Shown in pieces: positions 2,571-46,018 of a DNA stretch of 64,000 nucleotides. This stretch comes from a virus. The translations under genes were made by a program, and so were the position numbers. The notes under the pieces were generated by a model that did no database searches, had not been told where the DNA came from, and saw only the letters and a program-made list of their open reading frames with translations. Position 1 is the stretch's first letter. Every line of letters starts with the position of its first letter. The stretch is from positions 17,133-81,132 of the IMG/VR virus record IMGVR_UViG_3300035661_000042. One strand, 5' to 3'.

Positions 2571-2592
2571 TCCTTTGTTTATCCTTTGTTTA
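2571..2592. repeat. 11-base tandem duplication at endonuclease gene border
   Basis: TCCTTTGTTTA occurs twice without gap (2571-2581, 2582-2592). The copies carry a duplicated ribosome site and GGATAA ending at the edge of the inserted endonuclease-like gene. Confidence 0.8.
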
Positions 2593-3303
2593 TCCGATTA
2601 GGCCGTGCAAAGATCGTTCAATTATTTGAATATCAACATTCAGTACTTCTGACCACCCAGAAAATGGTAATCGTTCTGATTGTCGATAGGTTGCAAACGT
2701 GCTTAACATTTGCTGTTCTGCTGACCACGCTTTTAGCAAAGTTGTGTTGTGACTAATGATGATCTCGTGGTCAACTCCACCATATCGTAATCGAAGTGAG
2801 CGCTTTGTTATACCTACTTTGTTGTATGTTCTACTATTTACGTTCAATTTTACAAGGTAGATCAAAGCTGATTGGCTGGCAAGGTTTTGATCAGCATCAA
2901 ACATCCATTGTTTATATTTTCCAGCTGAAAAATGACACTTTGGACATCCTTGACGAGCACTTACGTGCATGTTAGGGGTTTGCAAGAATGGTCCGTGGGT
3001 TTTACACCCTATTAGTACCTTTTGTCGATTATGAACGTAGTTTACTTCGTTATATGTGTAGGTATTTCCGTGAACCACTTGTGCTCGTTGCACAAATTCT
3101 GGTTTGGTCAAAAACTGCGATTGTTTTCGACAGTTAATGCATCCCAACACTTGCAGGTGTGAGTATGAACGTTGGGTAAATATTCCATGAGTCGGGCAAA
3201 GAATTTCAATTTTATCATGGACTCTATGTTCACCAACCGCATCATATTGATACTTGTTGCCATGAACTTTCAGAGCGCGAATCTTGAATGTATCGTTATC
3301 CAA
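2590..3303 (-). CDS. Probable homing endonuclease: two zinc-finger repeats plus GIY-YIG-like domain
   Basis: Two similar treble-clef-like modules run in tandem. The first has HGNKYQYDAV, then EILCPTHGIF and CINC. The second has HGNTYTYNEV, then VLIGCKTHGPF and CPKC. They are followed by a C-terminal module opening YLVKLNVNSRTYNKVGITKR, which resembles the GIY-YIG / T5orf172 nuclease start (Y-x-V/I with a downstream KVGxTxR). Such zinc-repeat plus GIY-YIG proteins are common phage mobile endonucleases. I set the start at the TTG at 3303, which overlaps the stop of the upstream gene (ATTGGATAA). The longer frame to 3384 also begins with TTG and would sit inside that gene. The gene interrupts an otherwise tight operon. 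Confidence 0.6.
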   Translation of the reverse strand: MDNDTFKIRALKVHGNKYQYDAVGEHRVHDKIEILCPTHGIFTQRSYSHLQVLGCINCRKQSQFLTKPEFVQRAQVVHGNTYTYNEVNYVHNRQKVLIGCKTHGPFLQTPNMHVSARQGCPKCHFSAGKYKQWMFDADQNLASQSALIYLVKLNVNSRTYNKVGITKRSLRLRYGGVDHEIIISHNTTLLKAWSAEQQMLSTFATYRQSERLPFSGWSEVLNVDIQIIERSLHGLIG

Positions 3304-3784
3304 TGAGATCACCAACAATGATATCTTTGAGGTATTTGTTGTACGTATCGGAGGGGGATACGCAGATCCACTCGTCAGGTCCAATAGGATGGCACAACAT
3401 TTGATGTTTGTTCAATGATGGGCCAACATTTTTGTGTTCAATGTAGTAGTTGGTTACTGTAATGATTTCTGGCGAGACGGCAGATTTCTTTGGTCCATAT
3501 GTCAGCGCAGTGAACTGTCTACCAGCTGTTTCAGCAAGTTCAACGACATCCAGCTGGGCTGTCTCTCGATCGTAAACAAGCACATTCCAATTTGCTGGAA
3601 GGGTAAACTGGAAACCCTTAATCAACACCTGAATTGAAGGACAAACAACTTCCTCCAACATCAACAAAGGTGCAAGGGTAAAGTCGAGCATTGACAGGTC
3701 CAGTACCCACATATGTTCTGTCATAGTGGGTCCGTGAATACTGTCAAGAATGATTGGTTGGGATTCGCCGTCAAATATAAGCAT
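3296..3784 (-). CDS. Conserved hypothetical protein next to uvsW
   Basis: This 162-residue gene follows uvsW by 18 bases in the same operon. The product is beta-rich with regular hydrophobic strands (FTLPANWNVLVYDRETAQLD; VCPSIQVLIKG) and conserved-looking prolines and Trp. There is no signal peptide, membrane segment or recognised nucleotide-binding motif. The segment around LPANWNVLVYDRE resembles Hint-type folds in hydrophobic pattern only, which is too little to call. Its position with UvsW and UvsY suggests a role in DNA metabolism, by context alone. Confidence 0.65.
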   Translation of the reverse strand: MLIFDGESQPIILDSIHGPTMTEHMWVLDLSMLDFTLAPLLMLEEVVCPSIQVLIKGFQFTLPANWNVLVYDRETAQLDVVELAETAGRQFTALTYGPKKSAVSPEIITVTNYYIEHKNVGPSLNKHQMLCHPIGPDEWICVSPSDTYNKYLKDIIVGDLIG

Positions 3785-35921: not shown

Positions 35922-36455
35922 ATGTCCATACGCTCAATTATTACCAAGGGATTGGGCGGGCTTGCACGGTGGTTGGTCAAAGCTCGGTTTGACCTGGCTG
36001 ATAATGACGGCACTCCACCCGTCATCCCTCCACAAATTCCTGGTAATGGTATATTCACCACAGCTTACAGTCCACTAATCACGGGTGGATTGGGGACGTC
36101 TGCGTGTTGTGGATTGTTACTTGGTGGTATGGGAGCGTGGCAGTGCTTTGTTGGCATTACTCCACCTCCAACCGGTGGTGCAGGTGGAGGTGGTGGAAGC
36201 TATGCAATTCATCCAGGAATCTATGTTCCTTGGCCCAAAGCACAACTACGCAAGAAGAATACCCGAGCGATTGTAGTTACAGTGCGAATCAAGGAAAAGA
36301 AATGGACAAAGAGCTATCTGATTCCTGAAAAACGTGCAAAGATTGCAGTTCAAGCGATACATTTCATCAACAAAACAACCGCCGCATTGTCTGTTGGCGT
36401 ATCAAGTGTCCACCGTGCAGCTCGCAAAGTTACGGCTGTGTTCAACAAAGAATAA
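35922..36455 (+). CDS. Hypothetical structural protein, Gly-rich centre and basic tail
   Basis: This 177-residue protein starts with a basic amphipathic helix (IRSIITKGLGGLARWLVKAR). It has a hydrophobic Gly/Cys-rich centre (GTSACCGLLLGGMGAWQCFV, a possible membrane or tightly packed segment) and a GGAGGGGGS linker. The C-terminal half is strongly basic (KAQLRKKNTRAIVVTVRIKE; KKWTKSYLIPEKRAKI). It lies 8 bases after the preceding gene. I do not recognise it; membrane association is possible but unproven. Confidence 0.55.
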   Translation: MSIRSIITKGLGGLARWLVKARFDLADNDGTPPVIPPQIPGNGIFTTAYSPLITGGLGTSACCGLLLGGMGAWQCFVGITPPPTGGAGGGGGSYAIHPGIYVPWPKAQLRKKNTRAIVVTVRIKEKKWTKSYLIPEKRAKIAVQAIHFINKTTAALSVGVSSVHRAARKVTAVFNKE

Positions 36456-36458
36456 ATA
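36451..36458 (+). promoter_or_regulatory. Late promoter AATAAATA
   Basis: Overlaps the preceding stop codon; 22 bases before the ATG at 36480. Confidence 0.55.
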
Positions 36459-36479
36459 CCTGCTCACGAGGAAAAATCA

Positions 36480-37316
36480 ATGAGCGAACCAACAATCAAA
36501 ATCAACCCAGCAAAAGCATGCGAAATCGAGTTCGAAGTATCCGTGCAAGGCTCGGAGGTATCGGAGCCACCCATTGTGCGCTTCGTTATGAGCGGATGCG
36601 ACGAGTACTTATGCACGTTTGAATGTGTAAAAGTCGAAGGGGTTAAGTGGTCTGTAAAGATTCCTCCTCTGTCACACTTCACAAAGACGACCGTTCCGTT
36701 TCACGTTGAAGTCATTGTTGATGGTTACTACTTTGAACCAGCCGAAGGCACAGTTCAATTGATCACAAATCCGTCTGTTAAATTCCAACCAGTAGTAAGC
36801 GCAAAGCCAACTGTGACAACGTCATTTACTGTAAAGCAGGATGATGAAAAGCCAGCAAAACCTGAAAAGAAGGTATCAGAGGCGGCAAGTGCTGCAACAA
36901 TTACTGGACAGTATGCACCAACTAATGGACTATTGAAGCCAGAAGAAGAACCAACACAAAGCAGCGTCAAGATTGGGAACGCAACGAAGGATGACGAACA
37001 CATTGATCATACTCGTTTATCAGACATCAGCTCATCGGTTCTTCCTGGGGAAACAACTGATCCTGAACCACAGCGTGGAAATAACGAGCCAAGCGGCGAA
37101 GAAGGTGATGACGAAGAGTTTGATCCAAAGCGCGTTGCAGAAGGCATCGTCAGCCGCACGATTGGTGGATCCGCTCAAAAACCAACAACACAAGGCACCT
37201 TGTTCAAGCGTGGCAAAGACGGTAAGGCAGTGATTGAAGGTATCGATTCGCCTGCTGCAAAGGCTGAAAAAGCATCAAAAGCAGCCAAGGTGAAAGAAAT
37301 CCTATCAGGTCAGTAA
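36480..37316 (+). CDS. Two-part structural protein with disordered C-terminus
   Basis: Residues 1-110 form a predicted immunoglobulin-like beta-sandwich (ACEIEFEVSVQGSEVSEPPI; VKWSVKIPPLSHFTKTTVPF). Residues 115-278 are charged, Lys/Glu/Ala-rich and probably disordered (QDDEKPAKPEKKVSEAASAA; GEEGDDEEFDPKRV; basic end KAEKASKAAKVKEILSGQ). AATAAATA lies 22 bases upstream and GAGGAAA is the ribosome site. Late expression and this architecture suit a virion or head-associated protein. The stop codon abuts the stop of the convergent gene. Confidence 0.6.
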   Translation: MSEPTIKINPAKACEIEFEVSVQGSEVSEPPIVRFVMSGCDEYLCTFECVKVEGVKWSVKIPPLSHFTKTTVPFHVEVIVDGYYFEPAEGTVQLITNPSVKFQPVVSAKPTVTTSFTVKQDDEKPAKPEKKVSEAASAATITGQYAPTNGLLKPEEEPTQSSVKIGNATKDDEHIDHTRLSDISSSVLPGETTDPEPQRGNNEPSGEEGDDEEFDPKRVAEGIVSRTIGGSAQKPTTQGTLFKRGKDGKAVIEGIDSPAAKAEKASKAAKVKEILSGQ

Positions 37317-37865
37317 TTACTGAACAAGTCCGTACCGGCGAAGCATTTCAACCAGCTTCAAAAGGTGCTTACACATTCCAGGAACTTGGTCTGGATTGAC
37401 TGGTGGACGATTTGTCTTGCGTTGATACAATGGCGGCGGTTTCCCGACAAGTGATTTATCCTGTGCATTGTAGTTTGCAAAGCGGTAGTGGAAGTCCAAA
37501 CAGTTACAACGCACCTTGACTGTATGTCCGGTAAGTGCAAGCGGCTGGACGTGATAATCCTCTCCATCACTCGCTTGGAACGTTGCATTAGATTCGGTAT
37601 CTTCCGGTTCGAACTGAACCTTCATAAACTGCAACGCTTGTTGGTACTGATGGCCGTTACTGGCTGACAAAGACTTGACGTGCAACATCTTCATACCAAT
37701 GTACGGCATATACTGCACATTAGACACAACAACTTCACCGGTTGCATGCTGGCGCTTGCGGGTGTTAGGGAACGCTTGAACAATGTTTTGTTCCAAATCA
37801 GGAACGGAAGAAGCCTCTTCCAATTGTTGAAGGATACGTTCCCCACGAAGTAAAAAGAAGGTCAT
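37317..37865 (-). CDS. SWIM zinc-finger protein
   Basis: The 182-residue product contains CNC at 120-122 (VKVRCNCLDFHYRF) and CKH at 165-167 (VPGMCKHLLKLVEML). This is the C-x-C ... C-x-H pattern of SWIM zinc domains, which bind DNA or proteins. The upstream 110 residues are mixed, with a helical start (LLRGERILQQLEEASSVPDL). It overlaps the upstream adhesin gene by 4 bases, so it is made from the same late mRNA. A role in packaging or DNA handling is speculation; the SWIM call is firm at motif level. Confidence 0.7.
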   Translation of the reverse strand: MTFFLLRGERILQQLEEASSVPDLEQNIVQAFPNTRKRQHATGEVVVSNVQYMPYIGMKMLHVKSLSASNGHQYQQALQFMKVQFEPEDTESNATFQASDGEDYHVQPLALTGHTVKVRCNCLDFHYRFANYNAQDKSLVGKPPPLYQRKTNRPPVNPDQVPGMCKHLLKLVEMLRRYGLVQ

Positions 37866-39655
37866 GATAGAGTTGGCCTTGCTGTGATTAAGTCAAACTG
37901 CGTTGTAGGTCCATTAGTTACGCCCTCTGCACGAACATTGATTGTACGTCCCGAGTTATTCGTGCTGGTTGCGTTACCAAAGTACTTAATCCCGTCGATC
38001 GACACCTGAACGCCTGCGGGTCCAGACCGAATGCGCAATGTGCGAGCAACGGAAGATACAGCAGCAGGAATCGCAACAGTAGTTACGCTTGCACCAGTGT
38101 ATGGCTTAACTTCTATGCGGCTGTTTATTGCATTAGTTGTATTTACCACCCGAACAGTCGTTCCTGTGCGCAGTGAATCATCGTACAAGTTTCCTGTCAA
38201 TACGGGTGATGTTGTTACAACAAATGCGCCATCATTTGCTGTTTGGAGATTGAACACAACAATAATTTCAACGCCCGCACCAGGAATAACACCCGACGAG
38301 TGATATGACCATGAATCATATCCATCAAATACCACCGTACCCCCAGAGAGGGTTGTTGGATAAAAGTTGGAATCGCCAGATAGGGCAGGAACACCTGCCC
38401 CTGTGTATCCAACCCACACTGCCCCAATTTCGCCTGTATGAGAACCTGAGAATGGGTAGGCAAGATATCCAGATCCTGTAAATGTGTCTTGAAGAATTAA
38501 CGGTGCACTCACATTAACTGGGGTGTATGTAAGTTCCGCAGGAGGACACGGAACAGCCCAACCAGGATGAGTAAACATACATGGCATACGGGCGCCGATT
38601 GGGTTGTTGACATCAGGAACGCCAGCACCAAGACCGTTATCGTAATCAACATACCACGCCCATTTTGTACGCCACGCGTCAAAGAAATCAATATTCTCAG
38701 CAGTAGCTGAAGCATGGTATAAAGACCCAGAGCCACCGCCTGACCATCCAACATCAATTTCATTGATCGTACCGGCCAGCAAACCTGCAACGGCAGGTGT
38801 GTAACTACCGCCCGCTGTTTCTACAAATCCGGTGACACTTGTAGCTGTCCCGGTGAACGTTTCCGTCGCCACAACCACTCGGTTAAATACAATCTCCACA
38901 ATGATTTCAGCAGAGTTTAGAGGATTGATGCCAAACAGAGCACCCGCAAGTGTATCAGCAGCTGTGGCGGTTGCCACATCAGTCGTTACGTCAAATATTC
39001 CAAAGTTGAACCGACGAACTGATACACCTCCGGAAATATATGGGACTACATTTGGTTGATCATTCCATAGCGTGTAGTTGCTATACGCTATCAATGGATT
39101 TGCACGGGTTGGATTGTTATCAAACCACTGTTCATATAAGATCGGTAGATTATTGTTAATTGCTTGAATGTACGGAGATTTAGACCACGCTGCCGTAGCA
39201 GCCATGCCTGGGAACGTAGACAGGCCTGGCGGCATCAGAATCGTTCCAGCACCATTTCCACCTTTGCCTGCATACCAAGCACCAACCACAGGATTTGTCA
39301 GTTGATAGAGGGCAACATAGTTAGTTGTTACAAGATTAGAGCCTGGGGAGTATATCCCGTAGTCGAGAGAAAACCCCGTATATGGCCCTGACACACCCAA
39401 GTCGGTAAATACGCCGAGGTTCGTGGCTGGTAATACTGGCGGATTAGTCCACACACTTGGATCACCACCCAAATTGACATTCATGCTTACACCATCAAGC
39501 GTGTCGTCATCGAAAAATGTGGGGACGCCTGGTACAGGGGTGAATGGAAGAAATACACCCGTTGTCCACGGGAACGGTGACAGGTAATATGGTGGACACG
39601 GACCAGCAACAGTCCGTATGGCCCAATACGGACCGAATGTAGCTTGTGATAGCAT
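37862..39655 (-). CDS. Adhesin-like virion protein with C-terminal lectin-type module
   Basis: The frame extends to 39673 with a TTG, but I chose the ATG at 39655 because AAGG lies just upstream, giving 597 residues. The N-terminal 400 residues are Pro/Gly/Trp-rich with many aromatic loops (YWAIRTVAGPCPPYYLSPFP; SAEIIVEIVFNRVVVATETF). The C-terminal 205 residues start at LQDTFTGSGYLAYPFSGSHT and resemble the free-standing 225-residue protein at 11007-11684. CATAAATA lies 25 bases upstream. It has no fibre-repeat sequences, so a surface-decoration or receptor-binding role is only an inference. Confidence 0.6.
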   Translation of the reverse strand: MLSQATFGPYWAIRTVAGPCPPYYLSPFPWTTGVFLPFTPVPGVPTFFDDDTLDGVSMNVNLGGDPSVWTNPPVLPATNLGVFTDLGVSGPYTGFSLDYGIYSPGSNLVTTNYVALYQLTNPVVGAWYAGKGGNGAGTILMPPGLSTFPGMAATAAWSKSPYIQAINNNLPILYEQWFDNNPTRANPLIAYSNYTLWNDQPNVVPYISGGVSVRRFNFGIFDVTTDVATATAADTLAGALFGINPLNSAEIIVEIVFNRVVVATETFTGTATSVTGFVETAGGSYTPAVAGLLAGTINEIDVGWSGGGSGSLYHASATAENIDFFDAWRTKWAWYVDYDNGLGAGVPDVNNPIGARMPCMFTHPGWAVPCPPAELTYTPVNVSAPLILQDTFTGSGYLAYPFSGSHTGEIGAVWVGYTGAGVPALSGDSNFYPTTLSGGTVVFDGYDSWSYHSSGVIPGAGVEIIVVFNLQTANDGAFVVTTSPVLTGNLYDDSLRTGTTVRVVNTTNAINSRIEVKPYTGASVTTVAIPAAVSSVARTLRIRSGPAGVQVSIDGIKYFGNATSTNNSGRTINVRAEGVTNGPTTQFDLITARPTLS

Positions 39656-39679
39656 ATGTGACCTTTGTATCAATCACAT

Positions 39680-39687
39680 ATTTATGC
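39680..39687 (-). promoter_or_regulatory. Late promoter CATAAATA
   Basis: 25 bases before the chosen ATG at 39655; serves the adhesin and the SWIM gene. Confidence 0.6.
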
Positions 39688-39704
39688 AGCTACACATAAG
39701 TCCT

Positions 39705-40208
39705 TTACTTGACAAGGTTATGGTCAGACACGATGATCTCGTGGAACTCACCAAGCATCGGAGCTTGCAGCGCATTGTAGTGCTGACGAACAGCCGATTC
39801 AGGCACGACCTTATCACCGCGAGTAGTGCGGCGCTTCAACAGTACATCCAGGCTGATTGGCATCAGCACAGCAACCGTCTTGTAGCCGTTCTTACGAGCA
39901 CCTTCCAAGTACATCTTACGGCGGCGAGCCGACAGATTCGTATTGTCGATATACATCGTACGACGTTCCTTGACCTGGGAATGAAACCGGGCATTCGCCT
40001 TTGCTTCAAATCCCTTATCGGCAACAGAGCCTTCGTACGCCTTGTGGTAGTCATCAGTATCGTACCATTCGTGACGCAGCGCGTCCAGAGAGAACACGTT
40101 GATATCAGGAATGGTTTCGCGCAACTTTGCCAAGTACGTGCTTTTGCCACATCCGCTTGGACCCACGGGCATATACATAACAGGAACTGACATGTGGTCA
40201 TTACTCAT
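39705..40208 (-). CDS. Polynucleotide 5'-kinase-like P-loop protein
   Basis: The start at 40208 overlaps the HNH gene stop and has GGAAGGAAAAG upstream; a longer frame to 40304 lies inside that gene. The 167 residues have P-loop GPSGCGKS (16-23), then FSLDALRHEW with D42 and R45. The D-x-x-R spacing matches the acceptor-binding pair of T4 polynucleotide kinase (D35, R38). A lid-type segment LLKRRTTRGDK (123-133) follows. There is no phosphatase half, unlike T4 Pnk; an HD hydrolase gene two genes upstream could supply it. The likely reaction is phosphorylation of 5'-OH RNA or DNA ends. Alternative: another small P-loop kinase. Confidence 0.75.
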   Translation of the reverse strand: MSNDHMSVPVMYMPVGPSGCGKSTYLAKLRETIPDINVFSLDALRHEWYDTDDYHKAYEGSVADKGFEAKANARFHSQVKERRTMYIDNTNLSARRRKMYLEGARKNGYKTVAVLMPISLDVLLKRRTTRGDKVVPESAVRQHYNALQAPMLGEFHEIIVSDHNLVK

Positions 40209-40692
40209 TTCGCTTTTCCTTCCACCATAGGTAGATTTGTTCAAACTCGTCAAAAGTAGCGTCCGTTTTGATATTATTTGCTCGAAAGGAGATGTAATGG
40301 ACATTGCCCTTCACGTATCCTCTTGAACTATCAAGTCGGTCCAGGCTTCCTTGATGAAGTTCCGATATTGTCCCAGTTTCTTGACCCAGAGACAACGGAA
40401 CATTCAAAATCGGACATATCCCTGTCCAAATATCTTGAAGGTAGACTAGGTCAAGGTCAAACTCCCACCCATTTTCCTTGGCTCGTTGACGTGCCTTTTG
40501 CAGAGAAAACTTTAGCGAACCGGACCGTCGACTGGCAACAGTTCTCGCCTTTTCACGTTGCTTGTATTCATCAGTGTGACGAAGGGCTCTATGCGTTGAT
40601 AGGAATCGTTCTCGGTTATTCTCACGCCATTGTTTGGCGGCAGCGTTTAGACGTTCTTTGTGTTTCTCACGATAGCGTTGACTTGGTGTCAT
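40201..40692 (-). CDS. HNH-type endonuclease, probable homing gene
   Basis: The 163-residue product has a basic N-terminus (RYREKHKERLNAAAKQWREN), then WTGICPILNVPLSL and a SLDRLDSSRGYVKGNVHYIS segment ending RANNIKTDATFDEFEQIY. This CP-x-LG/L ... SLDR-DS-GY-GNV-IS-AN-K layout is typical of phage HNH nucleases that act as free-standing homing enzymes. It sits between the HD hydrolase and kinase genes and overlaps the latter by 8 bases. A GATAAATA late element lies 22 bases upstream, while the HD gene before it has an early promoter. Confidence 0.75.
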   Translation of the reverse strand: MTPSQRYREKHKERLNAAAKQWRENNRERFLSTHRALRHTDEYKQREKARTVASRRSGSLKFSLQKARQRAKENGWEFDLDLVYLQDIWTGICPILNVPLSLGQETGTISELHQGSLDRLDSSRGYVKGNVHYISFRANNIKTDATFDEFEQIYLWWKEKRNE

Positions 40693-40713
40693 AATGTATT
40701 CCTCCGATAGACG

Positions 40714-40721
40714 TATTTATC
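40714..40721 (-). promoter_or_regulatory. Late promoter GATAAATA before HNH gene
   Basis: 22 bases before the HNH ATG at 40692, in the gap after the HD gene. It could also bring late transcription of the kinase gene. Confidence 0.55.
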
Positions 40722-40737
40722 GGGAAGTACATCCACC

Positions 40738-41379
40738 TTACCTTTCGCCATTATCTGGCATGCGTACCGTAGCTGCTAACTCCATAAATTTAGATACCCA
40801 ATCATCAGCCATTTTGACTTTCGCAGGCTGGTCATCAGAAAACCGGCCGTATTGATCAGCAAGCAAGTGACGAACAAACACTTCTGCACCACAGTAGTGG
40901 TTCGCAGTCAGTGCAAGATTGCGACGCTTTTCCTTGTCTTCAACAGACCAAGGCATGTGATGTTCAATGATGAACGACACAGTTACGATGTCTTGTGCGG
41001 AGAACAGCGGAAAACGAGCAGCAGCATACGTCTCAAACAGCCGTGCAGACAACAGTTCATGACCGTGGTAAGCACGGTAATCGCCACGGGCTTCGCTGTG
41101 CTTCTTGATTTCAGCTGCCGGCTTGCCCGTATCGTGAAACAGTGCTGCCATTGCGCCGAGGTAGTCAAGGCGCGACCACGGTTCAGAGTAGTGTTCGCAG
41201 TTTGCATCAACCATGCGAACATACTGGTCAACAACCATCATCGTATGAACGAATACGTTCTCTTCGCGATGCCAAGGACTATCCTCAACGGTGCGCTTCA
41301 TCCGCTCGAACATAGGAAATTGTGCCAAGGCATCGCGCTGGCCGAGGAAAGTTGAGCGGTAATCGATCTGGTGTTCCAT
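40738..41379 (-). CDS. HD-domain phosphohydrolase
   Basis: With the start at the ATG at 41379 (AGGGA ribosome site; the upstream ATG at 41406 lies inside the promoter -10), the protein has 213 residues. HD motif residues are in order: H45 (NVFVHTMMVV), H82-D83 (ALFHDTGKP), H105/H107 (AYHGHELL), H140-H141 (IIEHHMPW) and D175. The opening DSPWHREENVFVHT resembles the HD half of bacterial HD-Pnk end-healing enzymes (Runella type), where HD removes 2',3' phosphates next to a P-loop kinase. Here the kinase is a separate gene after an HNH insertion. Other HD substrates such as nucleotides remain possible. Confidence 0.75.
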   Translation of the reverse strand: MEHQIDYRSTFLGQRDALAQFPMFERMKRTVEDSPWHREENVFVHTMMVVDQYVRMVDANCEHYSEPWSRLDYLGAMAALFHDTGKPAAEIKKHSEARGDYRAYHGHELLSARLFETYAAARFPLFSAQDIVTVSFIIEHHMPWSVEDKEKRRNLALTANHYCGAEVFVRHLLADQYGRFSDDQPAKVKMADDWVSKFMELAATVRMPDNGER

Positions 41380-41404
41380 ACATGTATCCCTAAAAGTTAC
41401 CCTC

Positions 41405-41433
41405 ATAGTAACCGAAACACATTAAAAAGTCAA
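41405..41433 (-). promoter_or_regulatory. Sigma70-type early promoter of HD gene
   Basis: On the minus strand TTGACT (41428-41433), 17-base spacer, TACTAT (41405-41410). It overlaps the terminase stop, so it begins a unit separate from the late terminase mRNA. It excludes the first in-frame ATG of the HD gene (41406) as start. Confidence 0.7.
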
Positions 41434-42992
41434 CCCATTACAATACCGTATCCGTTGTCCCTGTCGTCGTACTCACTTGGTGCCTCGGTAATGTATGCGT
41501 GTGAGTACAGTTTGTCGTACGCGTCTTGGTCAAATGTTGAAATCTCTTCAAGCAGACGGACAACGATCAATGAAGCCATGATCAAGTCGTCTGTACTACC
41601 AGTCTTTGCAGCATAAGAACCCTTTGAACGAACAAAGTGCTTCATCTCTGCAATCAGTGCTTTTGACCTGATCTTGATGCTGTCACGCTCAACCATTTCC
41701 TTGAATGTCATACATGCTTTGATCTTTGACTTGCCAGTCGTCGTCATTCCCTTGCGCTTCTGACCTGTTTCAGAGACAAATTCTGCTGTTTCAGGTGGAT
41801 TTTCATCTGCTTCATACAGCGCCATGATTCCTTCGCCGACCCCGTTGTTTTCAACGGAGAAGTACACCGTTCCCTTTGCTTTCTCAAAGATGCGCAGTAG
41901 CTTTTTGAGCATGTGGTAGCCAGTAACGGATGACATTGTGTTGGAGCGGAACTCTGCAATCTGCTCCAATGCAGGGAAGTCGTACACAACTATTGTCGTA
42001 AAGTCGCTCCCTGACCCCGTAGCAACGTCCATTCCAATCAGGTACACAGTATTCGCAACAGGTTCTTTGTAGAATACAATCTCTCCTGATACGCCGATCG
42101 GTTTGATCCGGTCTACAATGCCTGTTAGGTTTGCCAGGACAACGGTGTCTACCAGCAACGGATCGCTTGATAGGAATTGACATTCATATTCCTGCTTCCA
42201 GCGAATTTCACCAATCTTTGCAGTTTCAGCATCCTTAAACTTTTGATCACGGCCTGGTGGCTCATTCCACATGATTTCAATGGGAGCAAAGTTGTTGACA
42301 CCAATCTTTGGATTTTCTGTCGAAGGAATGTTCGCACCACGCCACAACTGCGCAAATCTGTTCGTATCGCCGTTTGGCGTAGAACAGATGATACATCGTC
42401 CACCGGTTGCAAGTGTAGGTGAAACAGAACCCCAAAACTCTTCCGCAACGCTGTCTCGTACGAATGCAAATTCGTCCAGGAACAGCAGTGAAATTGCAAG
42501 ACCACGACCAGTATTAACAGACGTTGCTTGCGAGATGATACGGCTTCCGTTATCAAACCCTACACTGTGCTTGTTCCATCCGTCTTCCATCAGGCCTGGC
42601 TTTAACCAGTGTGGAAGACGCTCGTAGATGAACCGGACGCGGTGGATCATTTCCATTGCGTTGTCGTTCTTGTTTGACGCAATCACCACCGTTTGTTCAA
42701 ACTTAAACATTGCAAACCAAAGCAGGAACGCACCTGCAATCCACGACTTACCAATCTGCCGTGGTGCTAATGCAATCGAGAGTCGGTTGTCAGCAAACGT
42801 GCGGACAATATTTCGCTGGTACGGACGCAAAGAGAACGGAATTGAGCCTTCCGTTGCTGTTTGAATCTGGCAGTACTTGTCAATGAAGTACTCTGGATCT
42901 TCCATGCATTTGGAAAGCTCCATAACCTGCTCAGCAGTATATTCATACTGCTCGTTCGCACGTTTAAGAAATGGGTTTTTGGATTTGGCCAT
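41430..42992 (-). CDS. 17: Terminase large subunit gp17
   Basis: This is the packaging motor ATPase-nuclease, 520 residues from the ATG at 42992 (T4 gp17 has 610). Walker A-type APRQIGKS is at 76-83, adenine-proximal [12 protein letters not shown] just before it, and Walker [10 protein letters not shown] at 169-177 with D173/E174. Motif [13 protein letters not shown] follows. The nuclease domain begins at [20 protein letters not shown], with the RuvC-like Asp, and ends with a [13 protein letters not shown] helix. A further in-frame ATG at 43010 lacks a ribosome site. The small subunit gene lies just upstream. Confidence 0.95.
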
Positions 42993-43021
42993 GCAGGTAT
43001 TTACCCGCATAAAAGGTAGGG

Positions 43022-43456
43022 TTACCTTTTGGTCTTATCGAGGAGTGCCCGGAGGATCTCGTTCCGGTCAGCAACAATCAGGTTATTGTTGGTTGTATGT
43101 GTAGCAGTTCCAGGAATTGGAGTTAGCTTATCTTTGTGCATTTTTAGCACAGACTTTTCACGAACAGCACCAAGAGCTACGTTCAACATTGTTGCTGTCA
43201 CTTCACCCATTCGTGCTTTGAACTTACCTTCAACGCGTTCGAGTTCATCGCTGATAACGCTGACTTGTCCCATTGCAACAGTATAAATCTCTTCCAATTT
43301 GACTTCAATCTCGTCATCTTTCGCATCGTACGTAGGCATTGACACAACTTCTGCTGGGAGTACTTCTTTGTACTCAACCATTGTTGTACCCGACTCAATG
43401 TCAAAGATATCTTCCAGAGGATGATCGACGAGCTTTTGTTGTGTGGTAATGTTCAT
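43022..43456 (-). CDS. 16: Terminase small subunit gp16
   Basis: The 144-residue product (T4 gp16 has 164) starts [20 protein letters not shown]. Its central helical pair, [20 protein letters not shown] then [20 protein letters not shown], matches the coiled-coil oligomerisation core of gp16 proteins. It regulates gp17 and recognises DNA for packaging. It overlaps the upstream nuclease gene by 4 bases and lies immediately before gp17. Confidence 0.8.
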
Positions 43457-43890
43457 TTGAAAATCGTCTTCTCTGTGATGATTCGAAACGATATATTTCG
43501 AGCCTTACAAAACGACTGGGCCGCTTGCCACTTTGCAACATTAACAGCAAACATCAGTTGTTCATACAGAGCATGTTTGTGGTTTTTGCGCGGTGCTTGT
43601 GTTTGAGCTGCTGGCTTAACCTCAATGATTTCCTGTATGATTACGCCATCTTTGTTGATGTATTCTACCCAGTAATCCGGATAGTATTTATGCACACGAT
43701 TGTCAGTGGGTTTCAAGTATGGAATTGCTATTTCTTCGCTTGACCAGCGAAGGACTCGTTCGTTTCCATCAAAAAACTTGTGTGTTGCAAGTTCATACGA
43801 CGACATAAACCGAATCTTATCCACATCACCAACATACTTGTGTGGATTGATTGGAGTATATTTTCCTTGGGAAAACCTACTGCCAGCCAT
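43453..43890 (-). CDS. 4: Head completion protein gp4 (nuclease fold)
   Basis: The 145-residue product matches T4 gp4/gp50: QGKYTPINPHKYVGDVDKIR, then SSYELATHKFFDG, VLRWSSEEIAIPYLKP, a YYPDYWVEY segment and QEIIEVKPAA. The D (PDY) and E-x-K (IEVK) pair form a restriction-enzyme-type nuclease core. In T4 gp4 is needed to finish the filled head before tail joining. It lies directly before the terminase genes, a different position from T4. Confidence 0.8.
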   Translation of the reverse strand: MAGSRFSQGKYTPINPHKYVGDVDKIRFMSSYELATHKFFDGNERVLRWSSEEIAIPYLKPTDNRVHKYYPDYWVEYINKDGVIIQEIIEVKPAAQTQAPRKNHKHALYEQLMFAVNVAKWQAAQSFCKARNISFRIITEKTIFK

Positions 43891-43892
43891 GA

Positions 43893-45335
43893 TTAACCAC
43901 TACCACCAAACGGAAGGCTCGTAATCGCTTTACTGAATTTCGTTCCAAGATCAGCAACAGATGCAACAGCGGATTTACCCAAGCTGGCAACTTGATTAGA
44001 TGCATTTTTAAGAGGTCCAAGCAAGTCTGCTGCTGATCCACTTGAACCAATGTTAGTAACTGCGTCAATTGGACTATTACCCTTCGTTGCATTCCCGTTG
44101 TAGCGAAGAGGATACACTCCACCACGTTGTGTTTGTTTGAGGTTATACTTATTGGCAGATGCAAGGGATACATCTGGATCAAGGAATACGCTGTCATAGT
44201 TGAACGTGAGAGATAATTCTGACCCTTCGTTGCCAACAGACATGTCCAATTCATCCAAATTTAGCGCAGAGATTCGTGGGTTGAAAAAACGCCAAACATT
44301 CATCCGATTGCCGTTGTCGAATAGGTGATAGATACGAATTTCACTGAATACTTGCTTACGATCATTAACCAACGTTCCTGATGAGGCTGCATACTTACTT
44401 GCTGCAATTTGGTTAATGATTTGATTAGCGCTTAATGTATTGTCAACGAAATCCATACCTCCCTGTTCCAGCATATCTGACTGGGCTCCTGACGCTTCAA
44501 TTCCAGTGATTGGTGACATTGCTCGCATGTATGAGTGATAGAACCGTGTACCAACATTCATTGTATCATCGTGAAATGACATGTTCATTTCATCAAACTC
44601 TGTCTTTGTAACCACCTTGGTGCGGAAGTTGTAATAGTTCACATCTTCGTGGTGAAACTTGATATTTGGACGTGACGATCGCTTGACAGTAAATGCCATA
44701 TCAAGTGGACCAAAGTCTTGATCGCCAAGTGGGCCGTATCCTGCATCGGGAATAAATTGGACAACAAACAAGAACTTGAATTTAGGAGCACGTGCAATCA
44801 GGTCAACTGCGTATGGAGAAGCCTCGCAATGTTCACCAAGTGCTGTTTGTGCATCACCTGCGCCGGGGGTAAAAATATTGCGCCCTAACCGCTCTAAATT
44901 TTGAAAGTCTTGTAGTGCAGAAGGAATATCAGTGGTCTTGAAATTTCCCGCCTTAACTTTGGAGTATACTTGTTTTGCCTGTCCATATGCTTGATTTGCA
45001 ATCGCTGGATTCAAAGGACGCAACATATTAACCACTGTTGGTGCAATTCCTGTTTGTTGCAGGACCCAGTTTGCACCTGTGTCAATTGATGTTCCGATAG
45101 ATGTTGGAAGGGCGCCGGTTCCAACACGAATTGAGTTTGAAATGCTGTTAAGATTACGCAGTCCCTTGCCTATATTCCCGCCGCCAATGCTATTCAACAC
45201 TTGCAGGTCACCAATCTTCCCTATGGAGTTGAAGAAGTCGCGACGGTCAGCAGTCGAACCTGCAATTCCTGCTCCACTCTTTTGTAGATAAGCAGGTTCG
45301 CATTGTTTGACAGTATAGGTACGTGGATCAGCCAT
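43893..45335 (-). CDS. Tail-tube-fold protein, possibly baseplate tube initiator (gp54-like)
   Basis: The centre of this 480-residue protein (about 170-400) has the tube-protein signature RPNIKFHHEDVNYYNFRTKV, then VTKTEFDEMNMSFHDDTMNV, and later NRMNVWRFFNPRISALNLDE. These are the strands shared by gp19, gp48 and gp54. The flanking N- and C-terminal 100-170 residues are Gly/Ala/Ser-rich and helical. It is far longer than the 196-residue tube protein upstream. In T4, gp54 (320 residues) starts tube assembly on the baseplate; the match is by fold type, so gp48 or another tube-capping protein is possible. It has its own late element after a terminator. Confidence 0.6.
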   Translation of the reverse strand: MADPRTYTVKQCEPAYLQKSGAGIAGSTADRRDFFNSIGKIGDLQVLNSIGGGNIGKGLRNLNSISNSIRVGTGALPTSIGTSIDTGANWVLQQTGIAPTVVNMLRPLNPAIANQAYGQAKQVYSKVKAGNFKTTDIPSALQDFQNLERLGRNIFTPGAGDAQTALGEHCEASPYAVDLIARAPKFKFLFVVQFIPDAGYGPLGDQDFGPLDMAFTVKRSSRPNIKFHHEDVNYYNFRTKVVTKTEFDEMNMSFHDDTMNVGTRFYHSYMRAMSPITGIEASGAQSDMLEQGGMDFVDNTLSANQIINQIAASKYAASSGTLVNDRKQVFSEIRIYHLFDNGNRMNVWRFFNPRISALNLDELDMSVGNEGSELSLTFNYDSVFLDPDVSLASANKYNLKQTQRGGVYPLRYNGNATKGNSPIDAVTNIGSSGSAADLLGPLKNASNQVASLGKSAVASVADLGTKFSKAITSLPFGGSG

Positions 45336-45359
45336 GTTAATTCCTCTGGGTAACGTACT

Positions 45360-45367
45360 TATTTATG
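45360..45367 (-). promoter_or_regulatory. Late promoter CATAAATA
   Basis: 25 bases before the ATG at 45335, immediately after the tube-gene terminator. Confidence 0.6.
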
Positions 45368-45384
45368 CACAGCAAACACTAAAA

Positions 45385-45410
45385 GAAAAGCACGCCGAAG
45401 CGTGCTTTTC
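45385..45410 (-). terminator. Strong UUCG-loop terminator after tube gene
   Basis: GAAAAGCACGC stem, UUCG loop on the minus strand, then TTTT; 18 bases after the tube stop. Confidence 0.9.
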
Positions 45411-45427
45411 TACAATCGTGATCAGGC

Positions 45428-46018
45428 TTAACCGATCTTACCAGCACCACCAGAAGCGATGCCTTGACCTTGCGCATATCCACCAATATTCTGGCGTGCG
45501 TGATCATAGCTGATTGACATAACAATTGTTACTGGGTCAGCTGTTGAGTAGTCAAGTTCTGTCCAGTCAACGTTTTCAAACCAGCAGCCTTCCATTGTCC
45601 AGCGCTCGGTAACTTGATCGTTGCCGTCAAGCATTTCGAGATATGTAACAAACTTGTAGATTGAACCTTCACCAGCTGCTGCAAGCCATTGGCCTTCTGC
45701 ACCAATCAACCACTGTTGCTTTTGCAGTTGTGCTTGAATTACTTGTGAAGCTGAACCTGTGACGTCGTCCTGAACTGTGAGAGCCATTGGATCCCACGAG
45801 TGCTTTCCTGCAACATACGACACAGAGTTGTAACGGTGAAGTTCAACTTTTGCGAATGTCAACTTTGGACGATTGATGTTAATCGCTTGCATTGATACAG
45901 GTTGGCTGTCAGTGCCGCCGCCCATATTAGCAAACGTTACACGCCAGCGGTTTTTTTGCTTTGGATGTAGGATACCTGAACCTACGCCTGGGATGCCGAT
46001 ATCGTTGATTGTGCTCAC
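45428..46018 (-). CDS. 19: Tail tube protein gp19
   Basis: The 196-residue product (T4 gp19 has 163) has the tube fold signature: NRWRVTFANMGGGTDSQPVS, the strand INRPKLTFAKVELHRYNSVS, SWDPMALTVQDDVTGSASQV, and a C-terminal DWTELDYSTADPVTIVMSIS. It polymerises inside the sheath to form the DNA channel. The start is a GTG with AAGGAGA upstream. It follows the sheath gene, as in T4 (18-19), and a strong terminator follows it. Confidence 0.92.
   Translation of the reverse strand: MSTINDIGIPGVGSGILHPKQKNRWRVTFANMGGGTDSQPVSMQAININRPKLTFAKVELHRYNSVSYVAGKHSWDPMALTVQDDVTGSASQVIQAQLQKQQWLIGAEGQWLAAAGEGSIYKFVTYLEMLDGNDQVTERWTMEGCWFENVDWTELDYSTADPVTIVMSISYDHARQNIGGYAQGQGIASGGAGKIG

Follow-up and report, generated by a model that had tools for sequence, protein, structure and literature searches.

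The locus described here is best explained as a phage HD-Pnk, an end-healing enzyme, whose two halves have become separate proteins through the insertion of a free-standing homing gene of the HNH type in its inter-domain linker; the probability of this reading was put at about 0.8. The DNA analysed (the window) is a 64,000-nt part of an IMG/VR virus record of 81,132 bases, in which T4-like structural genes are present. Three consecutive minus-strand ORFs, for an HD protein, an HNH-like protein and a kinase, are flanked by the terminase gene gp17 on one side and a SWIM-like gene on the other (Table 1). The initial annotation had given this order, and it was recovered with PHROG matches well above chance. 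Only ~45 nt separate the HD stop from the HNH start, and the HNH and kinase genes touch.

Table 1. Features of the split HD-Pnk locus (window coordinates).
Feature	Position	Strand	Basis
HD metal-dependent phosphoesterase half of HD-Pnk (predicted), 213 aa	40738..41379	-	phrog_6931, AlphaFold, invariant residues
HNH-like free-standing homing-type endonuclease gene (putative), 163 aa, in HD-kinase linker	40201..40692	-	phrog_3322 'endonuclease', same-junction homologues
T4-Pnk-type polynucleotide 5'-kinase half (predicted), ATG at 40208 or 40193	39705..40208	-	phrog_6931, AAA_33, 1ly1
Predicted RNA hairpin pairing with the Shine-Dalgarno sequence of the HNH gene	40694..40732	-	folding energy, analogous hairpins in L122 and L076
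Late-promoter motif GATAAATA within the HNH-leader hairpin	40714..40721	-	ATAAATA overrepresentation in the window
GGAAGG Shine-Dalgarno-like site for the kinase, within the 3' end of the HNH gene	40218..40223	-	sequence
Sigma70-type promoter TTGACT-17-TACTAT (candidate), directly after gp17	41405..41433	-	motif, partial recurrence in relatives

The HD and kinase ORFs match adjacent halves of a single family, phrog_6931. PHROG profile search placed the HD protein on positions 20-163 of this family (E 2e-17), and the kinase falls on positions 185-338 (E 4e-22). The AlphaFold model of the HD half is an HD-type domain (pLDDT 93.4) and gave only weak, generic matches in a PDB fold search (SAMHD1, exopolyphosphatase/PPX, PDE). 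Residues H37, H45, H82-D83, K86, H107, H141, D175 and R179 are invariant across 31 homologues, so that the N-terminal domain holds a full metal set. The set listed in the initial annotation stood for H45, H82-D83, H107, H141 and D175 and had to be amended elsewhere: H105 and H140 vary, and the invariant H37 was absent from it. Placement of the HD protein among YfbR/MazG-linked nucleotide hydrolases, named beforehand as a result that would refute the split HD-Pnk reading, was rejected, as no such family occurs among its Pfam, PHROG or NCBIfam matches. The activity of the HD half is predicted by homology; phage HD-kinases are already known.

The kinase matched AAA_33 (E 1e-15) and the T4 Pnk structure 1ly1 (E 4e-7), although its P-loop profiles also match PSTK. 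Its motifs are complete, with a P-loop (GPSGCGKS, 11-18), the D37-x-x-R40 pair and lid arginines R121 and R125, in agreement with the earlier assignment to the T4-Pnk type. The architecture of T4 Pnk itself (PseT), a kinase followed by a HAD phosphatase, was ruled out, since HD precedes the kinase and the kinase ORF stops after the kinase domain.

Bacterial HD-Pnk sequences for comparison were taken from a plasmid collection; a profile search of genome contigs with the phage profile gave no bacterial relative. The phage family profile aligned with the HD-kinases of Deinococcus and a Pseudomonas plasmid over 324 columns covering both domains (hhalign probability 99.8, E 3e-29). The shared N-to-C order claimed earlier is thus upheld for the Deinococcus type, with which the alignment is co-linear, and homology of both domains, in the same order, extends to characterised members through this profile and through the presence of phage RM378 in phrog_6931. 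The Deinococcus and Pseudomonas-plasmid genes used each come after an RNA-ligase gene. On the Pseudomonas aeruginosa plasmid p4782_002 (L066, 112245-120255) an RNA-ligase and HD-kinase gene pair lies near IS21 elements.

The nearest relative, L002, has the same flanking genes, no HNH gene and a single 383-aa HD-kinase ORF. Identity between the window and L002 is 72% for HD and 89-91% for the kinase, and the two adjoin in both the HD and the kinase trees with support of 100. DNA alignment confined the net insertion in the window, ~538 bp, to the linker, and the catalytic sets of both halves are intact despite it. Fused genes in related phages, set beforehand as a check, were found in 67 distinct versions among the loci fetched, including L002 at the same locus, and the contrary expectation that the two genes never occur together did not hold. 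The fused gene is also present in named phages, among them Salicola phage SCTP-2, Campylobacter phages and Rhodothermus phage RM378. With L002 and 66 further distinct relatives all fused, the split gene of the window is a derived form and not a canonical, single-polypeptide member of HD-Pnk.

Among the same loci, HD and kinase are split without HNH in four (L048, L049, L051 and L126), and HD occurs alone in L050 and L142. The split in L048/L049 is a directly overlapping ATGA stop/start, a further fission of the linker without HNH; a small unrelated ORF lies between HD and kinase in L051 (4532-4775) and L126 (3047-3266), again without HNH. The lone HD gene of L050/G016, a 318-kb phage contig, is accompanied ~5 kb away by a full T4-type Pnk (phrog_505, 293 bits).

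The inserted protein was assigned to HNH from PHROG profiles (phrog_3322 'endonuclease', E 5e-30) and the motif S-L-D-R-x-D...GY-x-K-GN-V...N-x-I-K. The canonical first His is not evident in the 163-aa protein, Pfam and PDB sequence searches gave no Pfam match and nothing useful, the AlphaFold model is poor (pLDDT 56), and there are weaker profile matches to 'Srd anti-sigma factor'. On the strength of the profiles and motif, the product is a putative nuclease. A second endonuclease-like gene of the window (phrog_681, E 1e-32; 2590-3384, minus strand) overlaps the end of the adjoining ORF 3296-3784.

Insertion at this linker was found more than once. In L122 the order is likewise HD, HNH and kinase, with an HNH protein 56% identical to that of the window, and both insertions end just before the first strand of the kinase. 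L128, a sister of L122 at ~80% DNA identity and with the same metagenome number, is fused. In both pairs (window against L002, L122 against L128) the HNH gene therefore interrupts a reading frame that is unbroken in the sister without HNH; the earlier proposal of a homing-type gene between the halves of one enzyme is borne out by the fused L002 and by L122, with HNH at the same place. HNH homologues occupy the same junction in L075/L076 and L081/L082 as well, where HNH is followed by the kinase and HD is absent. As these two HNH-bearing lineages have lost HD, the HD/kinase pair is not always kept. The stretch L081:1428-3600 is a homing hot spot, in which a repeated gp17 C-terminal fragment, HNH, kinase, a GIY-YIG endonuclease gene and another kinase fragment follow one another. 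In L012, L013 and L020 the terminase gp17 is itself interrupted or bears an insert.

The presence of HNH at this one site is discordant with phage phylogeny. On the gp17 tree the HNH state requires four changes, and the AU test rejected the window and L122 as one clade (p 1.5e-11) and all HNH carriers as one clade; a preceding tree had also led to rejection of a window-L076 clade (p 3.8e-6). In at least one case, clearly, an HNH-type gene came to the same linker by separate insertion, as is most clearly seen from the two fused-sister pairs. The L075/L076 and L081/L082 lineages could have reached the HNH-kinase state by transfer or loss.

Expression signals were sought around the insertion. The window contains 25 copies of the motif ATAAATA where 5.6 would be expected, and many of them precede structural genes. 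The copy upstream of the HNH gene, GATAAATA, sits inside a predicted hairpin that pairs with the Shine-Dalgarno sequence of this gene (-12.2 kcal/mol, z -2.66). According to the prediction, this hairpin is lost from a transcript that begins immediately 3' of the motif. This layout recurs in the HNH leaders of L122 and L076, with stems that differ (-10.6 and -9.9 kcal/mol). The hairpin of L081 is weak and leaves the Shine-Dalgarno site uncovered, so that three of the four HNH leaders have a predicted hairpin that covers the ribosome-binding site and carries a late-promoter motif in its loop. A hairpin that hides the ribosome-binding site, together with a late promoter, is the design described for I-TevI, I-TevII, I-TevIII, SegB and Aeh1 MobE (PMC2988022). 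From these folding predictions the HNH gene appears to be wired for early silence and late activity. Where their HNH genes end, L076 and L122 have Shine-Dalgarno-type sites for the kinase comparable to GGAAGG. The fused gene is preceded by sigma70-like sites (9-11/12, 17-nt spacers) in L002, L007, L011, L013, L014 and L016, and no comparable site was found upstream of the gene in L006, L012, L017 and L018; taken by itself, the candidate promoter upstream of HD in the window falls short of significance (shuffle 0.1).

These features suggest the following course of events. An HNH-type homing gene would have landed in the linker of an enzyme whose HD phosphoesterase domain is N-terminal and whose 5'-OH polynucleotide kinase domain is C-terminal. 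The inserted gene would terminate HD translation within the linker, and the kinase would draw both its Shine-Dalgarno site and its start codon from the 3' end of that gene. The hairpin over its own ribosome-binding site would keep HNH off early, and the late promoter inside the hairpin would give shortened transcripts from which HNH is translated late. As two separate halves, which may re-assemble, the enzyme would still heal broken ends: HD would remove 2',3'- or 3'-phosphates, the kinase would phosphorylate 5'-OH ends, and a ligase would then seal them. The ends may be of RNA or DNA, and the counter to host anticodon nucleases suggested in the initial annotation is a possible role. A wider reading, for which we would give slightly less than even odds, is that the HNH element repeatedly targets the HD-Pnk linker as a portable cassette (HD stop, late-gated HNH start, and kinase ribosome-binding site and start) that keeps the enzyme working in two pieces, and that in some lineages HD and the RNA-repair pathway are then lost.

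Several known systems resemble parts of this arrangement. The RM378 5'-polynucleotide kinase/3'-phosphatase (Blondal et al., 2005, JBC 280:5188, cited through PMC1997131) resembles the window in its PHROG and in its domain order, HD before a T4-Pnk-type kinase; it differs in being one polypeptide with no HNH and is ~22% identical to L002, the fused sister. Rm378p110 (L052:2926-4011) was taken as the assayed enzyme because it is the sole match in the RM378 record, and it presumably is. Its label is 'probable poly A polymerase' and that of phrog_6931 is unknown function, despite publication of the RM378 enzyme in 2005. Bacterial HD-Pnk enzymes (Deinococcus DRB0098, Runella; cited through PMC9146567) have the same domain order and motifs, the profile match being to the Deinococcus type, but are fused, bacterial and distant in sequence, with an RNA ligase next door at the Deinococcus and Pseudomonas-plasmid loci. 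T4 Pnk shares the kinase domain and its motifs; there the kinase comes first and is joined to a HAD phosphatase, to which the leading HD domain of the window is unrelated. Aeh1 MobE and T4 mobA are free-standing HNH homing genes that split their phage host genes (nrdA and gene 60, respectively; PMC2988022), as in the window, and an RNA hairpin also conceals the ribosome-binding site of MobE. The window differs from both in the host gene, in the cut within an inter-domain linker and in the recurrence of the association in several lineages.

The surrounding ligase complement was also surveyed. No RNA ligase was found in the incomplete 81-kb fragment to which the window belongs. Ligases of the Rnl1/Rnl2 type are usual in large genomes with the fused gene, with G002 and G010 as exceptions; G002, which has no Rnl-type ligase, is a close relative of G003 and G004, which have such ligases. 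RtcB was found in 0 of the 21 records searched. The large L081/L082 genomes are without Rnl-type ligases and without HD.

The rate of change in the two halves bears on whether the split is degenerative, that is, whether the healing enzyme lost its function when HNH was inserted, leaving pieces heading for loss as in L075/L076 and L081/L082. The absence of HD from those two HNH lineages, and of Rnl-type ligases from the large L081/L082 genomes, would fit such decay, as would the 19 lineage-specific HD changes in the window against 9 in L002 (polarised with an outgroup), a weak and non-significant difference that is only suggestive of faster change in the window. Decay is nevertheless considered unlikely. 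Both ORFs are intact and keep every invariant residue, and the kinase is not accelerated (5 lineage-specific changes against 5; gp17, 33 against 32). The pN/pS values against L002 (0.25 for HD and 0.12 for the kinase) are comparable to those of neighbouring genes (0.17-0.23), with synonymous change saturated or nearly so and with most of the window-L002 divergence possibly predating the split.

Two other explanations deny a split enzyme altogether. HD and kinase could be separate enzymes that are merely adjacent, the one a nucleotide or signalling phosphohydrolase and the other a kinase for tRNA or a small molecule, as the generic HD fold with its weak PDB matches, the lone HD genes and the PSTK matches of the P-loop profiles would allow; this is very improbable given the 67 distinct fused versions, the published activity of the RM378 homologue, the co-linear match to Deinococcus-type HD-Pnk adjoining RNA ligases, and the T4 Pnk D-x-x-R pair and lid arginines of the kinase. 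Introns and inteins often harbour HNH genes, and one fused protein might still be produced if the gene lay within a self-splicing intron or an intein. A group I/II intron was rejected when positions 36000-46000, scanned with Rfam at E values up to 5, showed no intron core RNA around the HNH gene. The tight packing of the three genes, the in-frame stop codons and the kinase's own Shine-Dalgarno site also count against splicing at either level, and we regard it as scarcely credible. A phage HD-Pnk divided by a free-standing HNH-type gene remains the preferred reading.

Phage HD-kinases as such are not new, the RM378 PNK having been published in 2005, and genes in pieces through free-standing HNH genes are likewise known; what sets this case apart is the combination, its recurrence and the regulatory layout. 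No report of a split HD-Pnk was found in the literature searched, with most subscription papers lying outside that search. The family phrog_6931, seen here in many large phages, gains a likely function. Fused and split close sisters of one end-healing enzyme in two phage clades amount to a natural before/after experiment. With these pairs it becomes testable how a homing gene cuts a useful gene without killing its function, whether end healing requires both domains in one chain, and whether splits lead on to domain loss.
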